Shown: piece by piece, positions 17,871 through 55,155 of the stretch
How positions within the stretch are numbered: the first letter of the stretch is position 1
Layout of the letters: each line of letters begins with the position of its first letter
Assembly (NCBI GenBank): GCA_009779925.1
Contig: WRAZ01000011.1
Coordinates: 1-55,155, forward strand
Direction of reading: 5' to 3'
DNA from: Chitinivibrionia bacterium
Lineage (GTDB): Bacteria; Fibrobacterota; Chitinivibrionia; Chitinivibrionales; Chitinivibrionaceae
DNA: 55,155 nt
Notes under the pieces: model-generated
What the model was told of the DNA's origin: nothing
Database searches by the model: none
What the model saw: only the letters and a program-made list of their open reading frames with translations
Made by a program: the position numbers and the translations under genes

Positions 17871-18020
17871 CCAAATATTATATTTGCGAACAGAAAATTG
17901 ATGCCGATAAAAAAATAATAAAGATGGGCAAAATGGCAAAAAATGGGCTAAACACTTGTAAACACTTGACTTTTGCGATGGACAAAACGTATTTTATACT
18001 ATATACATTTGTATATATTC

Positions 18021-18105
18021 TCGCTGTCTCGCTGTCTCGCTGTCTCGCTGTCTCGCTGTCTCGCTGTCTCGCTGTCTCGCTGTCTCGCTGTCTCGCTGTC
18101 TCGCT
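18021..18105 (+). repeat. Ten perfect TCGCTGTC octamer repeats
   Basis: TCGCTGTC repeats ten times without error, plus five bases. It ends 118 bases before the lipoprotein ATG at 18224. An 8-bp unit is not a multiple of three, and an open frame through it has only repeat-derived sequence, so I read it as non-coding. Confidence 0.97.
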
Positions 18106-18223: not shown

Positions 18224-19030
18224 ATGAAAAAAGCGTTTTGGTTATTAGGTTTATTGATTAGTGTAGCGTTGTTTGTAGGCTGTTCAGACAACGACAAAGG
18301 CGGTGGTGATACTGCTTTAGGATTGCCTTCAGTCCCCAATGCGACAGGTGGAGAATTAACAGCGCGTCCTACTGCACCAAATGTGGTAGTAAATGAAAGC
18401 AACTTAAACGATTTTGCCGAAGCGTTCAGTATGATGATGGCAAGTGGTGGCTACTACTCGCCTGAACAAAACTCTACGAACAAAGCAAGATCTGTTAATA
18501 CTAACAGAAGAGCAAGATTAGGGGCTACAAACTCTGACAGAACTGCAAGGTCTTGGAGCCCTGTCTATTCTGATAGTGGCGAAGAAACAGAGCTAGGAGA
18601 TTATAGTGGACGAATTGATATCGTTTGGACGTATAATATGAGATATAAAGAAACTGCTAACGGCGAAGAGTGGAATGCTAACGGCACGGGTATGGCAAGA
18701 TTCTTTAACTTTTCACATAACGGCAACCTATTTCTTGGCGGCGCATTAGGTGCTGCATTTTTAGATAATGGCTATGAAAACGAAACAGGCTGGGGTGATA
18801 CATTAGAAGACAAAGTTAACGGAACGCTTCGATTTAACGGTGCATTTGAAGGAAGTATTACTTACAACAATGTTCACATAAGACAAACTTGGGGCTATAG
18901 TTATATAACCAATGATTACACTGACGATTTCAAAGTACTTGGCGGTTCGTTAACTATAAACAGCGGTGGCAGAACCTTTAGTATTGACGCTGAAGAATTC
19001 AAAGATTTTTTCTCGTTGATGCATTTTTGA
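18224..19030 (+). CDS. Lipoprotein of unknown function
   Basis: 268 residues; strong AAGGAGG RBS. The signal peptide ends in lipobox LFVGC (Cys20), then a D/G-rich linker (SDNDKGGGD). The mature part is polar, with an Arg/Ser/Asn-rich stretch (about 85-110) and a beta-rich C-terminal half ('GRIDIVWTYNMRYKE', 'GTLRFNGAFEGSITYNNVHIRQTW', 'GSLTINSGGRTFSIDAEEF'). I recognise no family. The last third alternates strands in the way of small periplasmic barrels or bilayer-facing lipoproteins. Its own terminator follows. The neighbouring repeats suggest variable expression. Confidence 0.85.
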   Translation: MKKAFWLLGLLISVALFVGCSDNDKGGGDTALGLPSVPNATGGELTARPTAPNVVVNESNLNDFAEAFSMMMASGGYYSPEQNSTNKARSVNTNRRARLGATNSDRTARSWSPVYSDSGEETELGDYSGRIDIVWTYNMRYKETANGEEWNANGTGMARFFNFSHNGNLFLGGALGAAFLDNGYENETGWGDTLEDKVNGTLRFNGAFEGSITYNNVHIRQTWGYSYITNDYTDDFKVLGGSLTINSGGRTFSIDAEEFKDFFSLMHF

Positions 19031-25796: not shown

Positions 25797-28700
25797 ATGG
25801 TTAAGATTAAAGTGTTTTTATTGGCGGTGATGGTTTTCGCAAGTGTGGTGTGTGCAGGTGTTGGCGATGAGGTTTGGTCGCAGGATGGCGATATTGAATG
25901 GAATATTCACAATTATGTGCTTACTATTCGCGGTGATGGAAAGATGCCTAATTATAACTTTCAGGAAACTGCACCTTGGAATTCACATATTTTTTCTTCC
26001 GCGATTATACAAAATGACGTAACAAGCATAGGGGTAAATGCTTTTAGTGATCATCGCGGATTAAGAGAAATATCTATTGGGAACTCTGTTCAAACTATTG
26101 GAAACTATGCGTTTTTCGGCACCAACTTAACTTCTGTAGTTATCCCAAACTCTGTAATGACTATTGGAGACTATGCTTTTGCCACTCTTAACAATTGGAC
26201 TATGCCTTTGACTTCTGTGGTTATCCCAAACTCTGTAATAACTATTGGGGTTGGAGCTTTTTCAGGTAGCAATTTAAAGGAAATAACCATTCCAAACTCA
26301 GTGACACGTATTGAACGGTCCGCATTTTTGGGCAACACTAACTTGACAACATTAAACTTAAATGCCGATAATGTTAGTTTTGGATGGGAAGCATTTGGTA
26401 ATACCCCTAATTTAACACGGCTTAATATTGGTGCTCAAGTAGCAACGAGACCAGTAAGAGAACTGTTGAGATTACCTAATTTAACTTATATTAGCGTAGA
26501 TGCTCAAAATATTGCACTAAGTTCTTATGATGGCGTTTTATTTAGTAAAGAGAGAGACACTCTGATGAGATTTCCTAATGGTCGACAAGGCGCTTACGTT
26601 ATTCCTAATTCGGTAAACACTATTGGAACTATAGCATTCGAGGCTGCTACCTTATTAACAGAAGTAACCATACCAAATTCGGTAAACACTATTGGAACTA
26701 TGGCATTCGAGGCTGCTACCTTATTAACAGAAGTAACCATACCAAATTCGGTGACTAGTATTGGCGATCGCGCGTTTGCGAGTATGCCAAATTTAACAAC
26801 GGTAAATTTTAATGCTGTAAATATTGCTCACAATAGATTATTATTTTCAGGTAGCAACAGCATAACGCAAGTTAATATCGGCGACCAAGTGACAAGAATC
26901 CCTGGTTCTGCTTTCAGTAGGCTAACCAACTTAACAGAAATCATAATCCCAAATTCAGTGGTTAGTATTGGCAGTAGGGCGTTCGAGATGACTGGTTTAA
27001 CTAAAGCAACAATAGGTAATTCAGTATCTTCTATAGAAGATATGGCTTTTAGTAATACAAATTTAACAGAAATTACAATTCCCAACTCTGTAATAGATAT
27101 TGGTAATAGTGCATTCGCGAATACAAATTTAACAGAAATTACAATTCCCAACTCTGTAATAGATATTGGTAATAGTGCATTCGCGAATACAAATTTGACA
27201 GATGTCTCCATTCCCAATTCAGTAACAAGTATCGGGCGGGAAGCATTTGCAAATAACACTAGTTTAAAAACGGTATATTTTAATGCTAACTTAACAAGTG
27301 TTGGTTGGGGTATGTTTTCGGGGGCTAATAGTATAGCACGAGTTAATTTCGGCGACGAAGTAACTACAATACCAAGTATTTTTAGAGGGGTAAACAGTTT
27401 ACAAGAAGTCATACTTGGTAATTCGGTAACAACCATAGAAAACTTTGCGTTTGAGAATACTGGATTAACCGAAATCACCATTCCAAATTCAGTAACAACC
27501 ATTGGATACGCCGCGTTTCGTGGCACGCCAAACTTAACAACTGTAAATTTTAATGCAGAAAATATTACCAATATGGCGGGTAATGTGTGGCGTATTTCTA
27601 ACCATGTTTCAGAGCTATTCAATACAAGTATAACCACCATCAATATCGGAGACAATGTAACGGTAATCCCAGCTAATGCTTTTGTGGATCTACGAGGGAT
27701 AAATGAAATAGTTATTCCCAATTCAGTGACGACTATTGGAAGTAGGGCGTTCGACGGTGCCACTAATTTAACAGAAATTACAATTCCCAACTCTGTAATA
27801 GATATTGGTAATAGTGCATTCGCGAATACTAATTTGACAGAAGTCTCGATTCCCAATTCAGTGACGACTATTGGAAATGGTGCGTTCGACGGTGCCACTA
27901 ATTTAAAAGAGATTACTATCGGTAATTCTGTAACAAGTATTGCGCCTTATGCATTTGTTCGTACAGGTCTGAGAATAGTAAACTTTAACTCAAAAAACAT
28001 GGTTGAAGCTATGAATTTGGTATGGGGTGAAGGCGAAAGTAATATACCTGCAATTATTCAAGTAAATATCGGTGACAGTGTAAAAGTAATTCCTAGTAAT
28101 GCTTTTCGCAATTTATCAGAGTTAACAGAAGTAGTTATTCCTAATTCAGTAACAAGGATTGGGGCTATGGCTTTTGCAAATACAGGTTTGACGGAAATAA
28201 CTATTCCCAGTTCAGTGGCAGATATTGAATATCGTGCATTTTGGGGAACATCTTTAACTTTAGTTAGAAACACGGCAGAATCTCCGCAACGTATTAGCCA
28301 AGATGTGTTTTTAGACTTAGATATAGCAAGTGCAACACTTTTTGTTCCATATGAGAGTTTAGTTGCTTACAGAATGGCGCCTATTTGGCAAGATTTCGGA
28401 AATATTGTTGCTCTAATCTATGATTGGAGCGAATGGAGTGAATGGAGAACAACCGTTATGGCAAGTTGTGTTCTGGCAGGAAGCAGAGAAAGAATAAGGA
28501 TCTGCCGTACGCATAGTATACAAGACAGAGAAATTGAAGTCATTCCTACTCTTAACCACAGTTTTCTCGAAACTTGGACGACAATAACTCCTGCAACTTG
28601 CAACACTGCAGGCTTAGAGCGCCGAGAATGTTCACGCTTTGCAACTTGCGGTCATTACGAAACCCGTCCAATCGCTCCGCAACCTTGCGGTGGTACATAT

Positions 28701-38985: not shown

Positions 38986-40533
38986 TTATCTGAGCAGTGC
39001 CAACACGCCTTGTGTTGAAGCATTCGCTTGAGACAACATAGAAGTTGCAGACTGCACCAAAATCTGATTTGTGGTAAATTTGGAAGCTTCGCTCGCAAAA
39101 TCCACGTCTCTGATTTGGCTTTCCGCCGCTTGTTGGTTGACAATCGAGGTTGTAAGATTGTTAATCGTGCTTTCGAGACGATTAACCAACGCACCAATAT
39201 CCGAACGAGCGCGGCTTACTTCTTCAATCATATCGTCCAAAACCCCTATAGCGGCAATCGCACTATCGCCTGTAGAGCCGCCAATACTTGCCATTCCTTT
39301 TGCGAAAGTAATTGCCGTGTAGTCCACTGTGATAGAGTCCACTCCAACTACATCATTCGCACCAATCCACAAGTCTCTGCCGTTAAACATACTGTCGCCG
39401 CCTCTTGAGCGTGTGTCAAAAATCTGATGAGGTATATTACTCACACCATTGATATTAAATTCAGCCATATCCATCGCGGCGACTGCATCTCTTCCCTGTT
39501 TTCTAACAGCATCGAGCTGTGCATTGGTAAGCGTAAGGGCGGTTGTATTACCACCTGCGCCAAAGTCGTGCCCATCAACATCTACACCGGCACTTCTGAG
39601 AGCATTTCGCTGAGTTTCGCTCAAATCACCCAAGGCAGTTGTAGAAGCAATCGACAATCCGTTTACTCTATAATCAGAGTTACCCAATGTTCCAGCAGTA
39701 GTCCGAGTAATATTGGGGTTATTACCCAAGAACTCAAAACCACTGTTAAACGTAGCCCCTACTGCAGCATAACCTCTGTGTATTTGGGTAGTATCGGGAA
39801 TAGTGAGGACATTACTAGCCGCAGAAGCCAAGAGAGAGCGCTGTTCTACATCTCCCATCTGAGCGTCGATAATACTTGTAGCCATCGCTCGAATATCATT
39901 TCTCCAAGCAGTGTGCGCATCACTAAGAGCCCCCGGTATCCCACTATCCCGAGCGTCTTGTGCTGCCCGACTATTTTGAAAACTATGGACACCACCACCA
40001 GCATTTAACTGCCTCATAATATCTGTAGCCAATAACTCTATCGCATCATTTCTGAAATTTATCAAAGCATTAGCTCTTTCATTTCTATTTGTTAAAATCT
40101 CTTGGTTTGACGATTGAGGTCCTGTGAGTAATTTAATGCCGTTGAAGTTTGTTTCGTCGATAATTCTCTCGATTTCTTCTGCCAATGCCTGAAATTCAGA
40201 GTCCATATACGAACGCTCGGTTTCGCTGTAAGTGTTCGTTGATGCCTGAATTGCCAACTCTCTTTTGCGTTGCATAATGTTGTGCAACTCGTTCATTGCT
40301 CCTTCGGCAATGTTCAATGCGCTGATACCATCAAGCGCGTTTCTTTTTGCTTGTTGTGCCCCCCTTACCTGCGTTCTCAACCCTTCCGATAACGCCAAGC
40401 CTGCCGCGTCGTCGCTTGCTCTGTTAATTCTGAGACCCGTTGACAATTTTTCCAAATTGTTTGAAACTTGTCTGTTGTTCATAAACAAAGCACCTTGAGT
40501 GTGCAATGATGAAATGTTGTTGTTAATACGCAT
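38986..40533 (-). CDS. Flagellin
   Basis: 515 residues, RBS AAGGAGG. N-terminal D0/D1 'MRINNNISSLHTQGALFMNN' and 'LEKLSTGLRINRASDDAAGLA', then 'AEGAMNELHNIMQRKRELAIQA'; C-terminal 'ARSDIGALVNRLESTINNL' and 'AASKF...QILVQSATSMLSQANAS', ending LALLR. The central 150-400 region is a variable surface domain. It forms the flagellar filament after export by the flagellar type III pathway. It implies a motile species; no other flagellar gene is in the window. A candidate sigma-28 promoter with CAAG repeats precedes it. Confidence 0.96.
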   Translation of the reverse strand: MRINNNISSLHTQGALFMNNRQVSNNLEKLSTGLRINRASDDAAGLALSEGLRTQVRGAQQAKRNALDGISALNIAEGAMNELHNIMQRKRELAIQASTNTYSETERSYMDSEFQALAEEIERIIDETNFNGIKLLTGPQSSNQEILTNRNERANALINFRNDAIELLATDIMRQLNAGGGVHSFQNSRAAQDARDSGIPGALSDAHTAWRNDIRAMATSIIDAQMGDVEQRSLLASAASNVLTIPDTTQIHRGYAAVGATFNSGFEFLGNNPNITRTTAGTLGNSDYRVNGLSIASTTALGDLSETQRNALRSAGVDVDGHDFGAGGNTTALTLTNAQLDAVRKQGRDAVAAMDMAEFNINGVSNIPHQIFDTRSRGGDSMFNGRDLWIGANDVVGVDSITVDYTAITFAKGMASIGGSTGDSAIAAIGVLDDMIEEVSRARSDIGALVNRLESTINNLTTSIVNQQAAESQIRDVDFASEASKFTTNQILVQSATSMLSQANASTQGVLALLR

Positions 40534-40612
40534 AAAAGCCTCCTTGCTTTTGCCGCCTTAGCGGCTTCGTTTATATTGTTTTTTAGTAGCACTTCCTTGG
40601 CTACATTTTGAA

Positions 40613-40644
40613 ATATCGTCCTTGCTTGCTTGCTTGAAACTTTA
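40613..40644 (-). promoter_or_regulatory. Candidate sigma-28 flagellin promoter with CAAG-repeat spacer
   Basis: On the reverse strand TAAAGTTT (40644-40637) is a perfect sigma-28 -35 and GACGATAT (40620-40613) matches six of eight bases of the -10 (GCCGATAA). The 16-base spacer is exactly four CAAG units; the usual spacer is 11. Transcription from it would give a leader of about 70 bases. Confidence 0.5.
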
Positions 40645-40687
40645 GTGTTTTGTTAAAAAAGACTAAAGTTTCAAGCAAGCAAGCAAG
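40621..40687. repeat. 26-bp perfect inverted repeat carrying CTTG repeats
   Basis: 40621-40646 (four CTTG units then AAACTTTAGT) is the exact reverse complement of 40662-40687, with a 15-base loop. The left arm is the -35 and spacer of the candidate flagellin promoter. As RNA it would form a very stable hairpin; on the forward strand a T-rich stretch follows. Confidence 0.95.
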
Positions 40688-40930
40688 TGTTTTTGAGATT
40701 TTTTTGCATTTTCTTCCGCTTGGCTGTGGGAGTTCGGCTAAATTGAAGGAAAAAGACTTTTTTTTTATTTTTTTGTTTTTTTTTGAAAAGATTGAAAAAA
40801 AATTTGCGTTTAAAAGCGGAAAAAAACTATTTTCAGCATTATTGCATCGCTGAAAAGACAACGGAAATTCCCCGTTTTTATTTTGTTTTATGTATTATAA
40901 TAATATTATGGTGATTTTGCCGGTTGTTAT

Positions 40931-54855: not shown

Positions 54856-55155
54856 AATTCACCCCCCTTGCCCAAACCAACCAAAGACCGCCCAATCTCC
54901 TTGAGCCACCCAAACAACAACACAAAACCCCTCTCAAAAAAGAGGTTTTCATAAATATATCCTGAAGTTTGACTTCGCGTATTACTTTTAGCTGATGCGC
55001 GTAAGCACCTGCAAATCAACGACTTATACGTGTGTGGGGGGGGGGGGGGGAAAACCAAGCTTTATTTGCTAATTTTTCGCCGGTTGTGGGGGGGGGGTGA
55101 GGTGGTGGGGTTTTATATAAGCCCAGTGGGGGGAAGGTGTAACTTTTGAGTTTCA
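54856..55155. other. Low-complexity window end
   Basis: No gene is visible. G15 (55036-55050) and G9 (55088-55096) runs make this region slippage-prone and also error-prone in assembly; short frames here are unconvincing. Confidence 0.6.

Follow-up and report, generated by a model that had tools for sequence, protein, structure and literature searches.

Promoters of the sigma-28 (FliA) class have in E. coli the consensus TAAAGTTT-n11-GCCGATAA, and two of them are activator-dependent, namely aer, which has CRP at -49.5 and an 11-nt spacer, and trg, likewise with CRP (PMC2859248). Tetranucleotide repeats at a promoter are known from the meningococcal nadA gene, where a (TAAA)n tract upstream of the core promoter differs between alleles in unit number, from 5 to 12 units among isolates and from 4 to 13 in constructs (PMC2791445). 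Perfect stems, for their part, can be both created and maintained by template switching (PMC8794818). A search of a limited literature collection for repeats within the spacers of flagellin promoters gave no relevant precedent.

Here we describe a flagellin locus at which these three themes meet in one element. We propose, with a probability of roughly 0.42, that it is a palindromic long-spacer sigma-28 flagellin promoter that is conditional, gated by a factor at its dyad or by a DNA structure, and maintained rather than rapidly flipping. Beyond the earlier reading of this DNA we add that the repeats stand in both arms of the palindrome, that the element occurs at four loci, and that a spacer of 12 is nearly as normal as one of 11.

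Promoter architecture

The window, that is the whole stretch of DNA analysed here, is contig C11 (55,155 nt) of a 2.50-Mb assembly in 88 contigs that is 97.6% complete. Its relevant features are as follows, with paralogous copies named by their contigs (C20, C42 and C46).

38986-40533, minus strand: flagellin gene, 515 aa, intact, with Flagellin_N and Flagellin_C domains
40534-40551, minus strand: hairpin AAAAGCAAGGAGGCUUUU, whose loop presents the Shine-Dalgarno/GGA, second CsrA-like site
40552-40565, minus strand: leader hairpin 2, GCCGCUAAGGCGGC, closing pair G-C here and A-U at C20
40586-40604, minus strand: leader hairpin 1, GUAGCCAAGGAAGUGCUAC, with GGA in its loop, CsrA-like site
40613-40620, minus strand: -10 element GACGATAT, 6/8, CGA core present
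40621-40636, minus strand: spacer (CAAG)4, 16 nt, the array of the right arm
40637-40644, minus strand: -35 element TAAAGTTT, 8/8 to the sigma-28 consensus (PMC2859248), within the right arm
40621-40646, minus strand: right arm of the perfect 26-bp inverted repeat, containing the -35 and the spacer
40647-40661, no strand: palindrome loop, read as CTTTTTTAACAAAAC on the minus strand; the C20 paralogue has almost the same loop sequence
40662-40687, minus strand: left (upstream) arm, with mirrored (CAAG)4 and mirrored -35, no adjoining -10
40714-40738, minus strand: upstream block GCCGAACTCCCACAGCCAAGCGGAA, conserved at C11, C42 and C46 and less exact at C20

The first-pass annotation had placed a sigma-28-type flagellin promoter here, with four CAAG units exactly between a perfect -35 and a good -10, and both statements hold when the elements are read on the minus strand; moreover the genome encodes FliA itself (C28, 265.5 bits against a cut-off of 190). 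The array is not a chance arrangement, since YAAGYAAGYAAGYAA occurs seven times in the 2.5-Mb genome, in every case in these flagellin promoters, while its reversed control does not occur at all.

What sets the promoter apart is its spacing. A census of the pattern TAAAGT...CCGATAA across the window genome and its relatives listed 150 sites, of which 59 had a spacer of 11, 35 one of 12 and 4 one of 16, against a background of about 4 per length. Among sites of the window genome that end in CCGATA, six have a spacer of 11, three of 12 and one each of 8 and 10, with none at 16, and elsewhere in the genome two flagellins have spacers of the usual length (11 at C3:87366 and 12 at C35). The annotation's view of 11 as the standard is thus right for the commonest class but too narrow, 12 being nearly as normal here. 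At 16 the elements are out of register, beyond the 11-12 nt functional spacing of sigma-28 sites in this phylum. It had also pointed out that losing one unit would give 12, and this is borne out: 12 is a spacer in actual use, for example at the C35 flagellin, and a single unit therefore alters functional spacing.

Other promoter assignments were considered and set aside. The loose pattern TAAA...CGATA was too common to be of use, sigma-70 matches were at chance level, and a second candidate sigma-28 site within the conserved upstream block (GCCGAACT) has no -35 at the right spacing and is absent at C46 and C20. A TTCCGCTTG-type block stands by flagellin promoters in both genomes of the genus (window 40714-40734; G001:C142:2988-3008), in opposite orientations relative to the gene, and may be a chance resemblance. 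Upstream of its start, a further flagellin paralogue (L017, G000:C3:30759) has no sigma-28 site and carries instead a sigma-54-like TGGCACGCACATTGCA; judged by these upstream sequences, this genome seems to use more than one sigma factor for its flagellins.

The palindrome and the mRNA leader

The -35 and the repeats had been described as mirrored in a perfect 26-bp inverted repeat, and we find that this palindrome is real and that its pairing is preserved. Its arms (40621-40646 and 40662-40687) enclose a loop of 15 nt, or can alternatively be drawn as 31-nt arms at 97% identity, and each contains the CAAG repeats. As DNA the hairpin folds at -30.6 kcal/mol (z -9.7), with no shuffle equally good, and whether folded as RNA or as DNA the stem is much stronger than its shuffled versions. 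Rfam gave no match at the palindrome. Nor does it have the form of an invertible promoter of the Hin/fim type, with only 15 nt, promoterless, between the arms.

Downstream of the -10, at a distance of 7-8 nt, C11 and C20 share a leader hairpin, which is resembled at C35. The transcript therefore probably starts near 40606, which would leave the palindrome outside the flagellin mRNA with its centre about 47 bp upstream of that start. Within the leader two hairpins present GGA, one of them over the Shine-Dalgarno, and in this the leader is like those under CsrA control. Similar CsrA-like GGA hairpins (AAGGA in a stem-loop) are seen in several flagellin leaders here and in relatives (window 40534-40604; L010; L016). 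Beside flgK/flgL on C8 we found neither csrA nor a CsrA-like motif.

Copies in the genome and in relatives

The element is present at four loci of the genome: C11, C42 (at a contig edge), C20 (before a flagellin) and C46, where the contig ends inside the left arm. The genes upstream are unlike, being nitroreductase-like and on the same strand at C11 and divergent at C42 and C46, which argues that the element belongs to the flagellin promoter and not to a neighbour. Flagellin coding parts for C42 and C46 are not in the assembly and were probably lost by collapse of near-identical genes. We count the promoter module at no fewer than three flagellin loci, and probably at four. Because independent loci carry the element and C20 has paired changes, a chimera or assembly artefact was rejected. 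Three contig ends lie in or adjoining flagellin sequence (G000:C42:1, G000:C46:16160 and G000:C35:21819). More near-identical flagellin genes are probably absent from the assembly.

Outside this genome the element has no evident counterpart. BLAST of the promoter region against 168 genomes of the phylum confined it to this genome, bar two short matches of 24-29 nt (G007 and G024) that we take as chance. Many of the relatives' genomes come from a genus that lacks flagellins, as would fit Fibrobacterota. When the flagellin upstream regions of relatives were read no comparable palindrome was seen, the longest other arm being 12 bp against 26-27 here; TAAAG...CGATA sites, where present in those regions, mostly have a spacer of 11 or 12. 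Mirrored -35 boxes upstream of the relatives' sigma-28 sites were not above control level, so that these boxes do not amount to a conserved dyad and the element has no known operator in common with them. Two pattern scans of a genomic contig collection for the array with a -35 (and -10) returned no match, and the single match in a viral contig scan fell within coding sequence and was dismissed as coincidence.

Evolution of the arrays and the stem

The copy at C20 differs: both of its arms are built of four TAAG units, against the CAAG of C11 and C42, and a further pair has changed as well (its -10 is TCCGATGA, again 6/8). In the three sequences compared, all 26 stem pairs are formed; both partners have changed in five of them, and in no pair has one partner changed alone. 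With three sequences only, the shuffle control for paired change has little weight (6 of 500 shuffles score as high as the real alignment); the sliding control gives a clear result. Arms that evolve together in this way require either selection on pairing or copying between the arms, and the concerted change from one unit to the other requires that units be turned over.

Of 34 aligned sites in the core of the dyad, between the arrays, 2 distinguish C11 from C20, whereas for synonymous sites the fraction that differs is 0.58. Conservation of the mirrored -35 and of the loop equals that of the -35 itself, which suggests that the dyad works as a unit. Some of the conservation of the core could be due to gene conversion from one promoter to another. 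The two flagellins themselves have diverged to a dS of about 1.1 and a dN of about 0.145; the resulting dN/dS of about 0.13 implies that both genes have been kept functional. The CAAG and TAAG versions agree in having four units and hence a spacing of 16. In short, the (YAAG)4 array keeps the -35 and -10 16 nt apart, and palindrome, core and four-unit length are all preserved despite the change of unit.

We propose that four units are the normal, maintained state, from which sigma-28 polymerase alone would start weakly or not at all. Output would then be set at the dyad near -47, where a hypothetical dimeric regulator may bind or, alternatively, where supercoil-driven hairpin extrusion may alter the shape of the DNA. 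The likeness of the arms could be explained if template switching copied changes across and selection kept the result, and a CsrA-like control in the mRNA leader would act as a second layer. Loss of one unit would yield an ordinary promoter with a 12-nt spacer, as a rare mutation rather than the usual mode of control. That the element is maintained we conclude tentatively, and with somewhat less than even confidence, from two well-diverged versions only (C11/C42/C46 and C20) and thus from few independent events.

Alternative explanations

The annotation had further suggested that slippage could flip the repeat count. Put fully, four units would be the off state (spacer 16) and three the on state (12), with slipped-strand mispairing driving phase variation of several flagellins. 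We regard this as doubtful, though it has real points in its favour, as the spacer of 12 is fully used in genome and phylum, the concerted CAAG/TAAG change means that units did turn over in evolution, other long simple repeats exist in the genome ((AG)15 and (TCTCGCTG)11), and the flagellins are under purifying selection though their assembled state should be off. However, all seven arrays at the four loci have exactly four units, including those in left arms, which carry no promoter and set no spacer, and the length stayed at four while a letter changed in every unit. Since the C11, C42 and C46 copies are close, these seven arrays amount to about two independent lineages, and a switch that is mainly off could give the same picture. 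Four units are also short, tetranucleotide loci studied for variation having more than 10 (PMC6889271), and loss from one arm would spoil the palindrome, an allele of which no example was seen. A fast switch predicts drift of the count in the left arm and loci in different states; as neither is seen, a maintained, dyad-dependent promoter is the more economical reading.

It is unlikely that the palindrome is a mutational relic, made by template switching and slippage in little-used extra flagellin promoters and devoid of a regulatory role. Template switching by itself does yield perfect stems with paired multi-base changes (PMC8794818), and the element is restricted to one genome. Against it stand a core so much more conserved than synonymous sites, the retention of the -35, of the CGAT in the -10 and of the leader hairpins, and the purifying selection on the proteins.

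Slightly less probable still is a promoter-independent structure, an insulator or terminator between the flagellin and its upstream genes, for although the hairpin is very strong and is followed at C11 and C20 by T-rich plus-strand sequence, there is no T run on the flagellin-sense strand, a terminator scan omits the palindrome, a separate terminator-like hairpin lies at 40860-40876 beyond the nitroreductase, the divergent upstream genes at C42 and C46 leave no sense read-through to stop, and the fit to the -35 with an end exactly at the -10 would be coincidence. Least probable of all, we think, is a self-templating promoter, in which template switching from the mirror upstream arm would rewrite the downstream arm and reset the spacer, in length and sequence, to four units after slippage, so that a rare three-unit 'on' state would be transient and biased back to 'off' across the flagellin bank.

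Other repeats in the window

Several further repeats were noted in the window. An (AG)15 tract (2210-2239), within a small open frame on the minus strand (2050-2295), seems more likely than the CAAG array to undergo hypervariable slippage, and a lipoprotein-like frame of 268 aa at 18224 has a perfect (TCTCGCTG)10.9 repeat (18019-18105) about 120 bp upstream. A 12-bp repeat in 5.4 perfect copies (2579-2643) is in frame, as ITQG repeats, in a 301-aa protein that we take to be a PD-(D/E)XK/Rpn-type transposase-like protein. Tandem 66-69-bp repeats that are 71-98% alike (26607-27910) probably belong to a repeat surface protein. The last 120 bases of the contig hold a G15 run (55036-55050) and further G-rich runs, which could be either a variable tract or an artefact of sequencing.

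Significance and comparison with known systems

If the maintained, dyad-dependent promoter is the correct reading, a tandem repeat would here keep sigma-28 flagellin promoters out of register, with control through a palindrome, at several loci at once, and a set of flagellins could be silent or conditional together. The paralogues would also offer a natural case of compensated changes in a promoter palindrome, on which the template-switch idea could be tested outside RNA genes.

As in meningococcal nadA (PMC2791445), a tetranucleotide repeat stands at a promoter and its unit number sets the spacing of contacts. Unlike in nadA, all arrays here have four units, lie between the -35 and the -10, and are part of a palindrome. 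The aer promoter is similar in that a dyad precedes its sigma-28 -10, at -49.5 compared with about -47 from the inferred start here, but our spacer is 16 rather than 11 and our palindrome much longer. With the stems maintained by template switching (PMC8794818) the element shares a perfect stem and multi-base compensated changes, whereas those stems are in RNA genes and this one is in a promoter and has arms that are tandem repeats as well. Finally, it resembles canonical sigma-28 (FliA) promoters of the form TAAAGTTT-n11-GCCGATAA in its perfect -35, its CGA-core -10, the flagellin downstream and the presence of FliA, yet differs from them in that its 16-nt spacer is itself a tandem repeat and that -35 and spacer together form one arm of a 26-bp palindrome.
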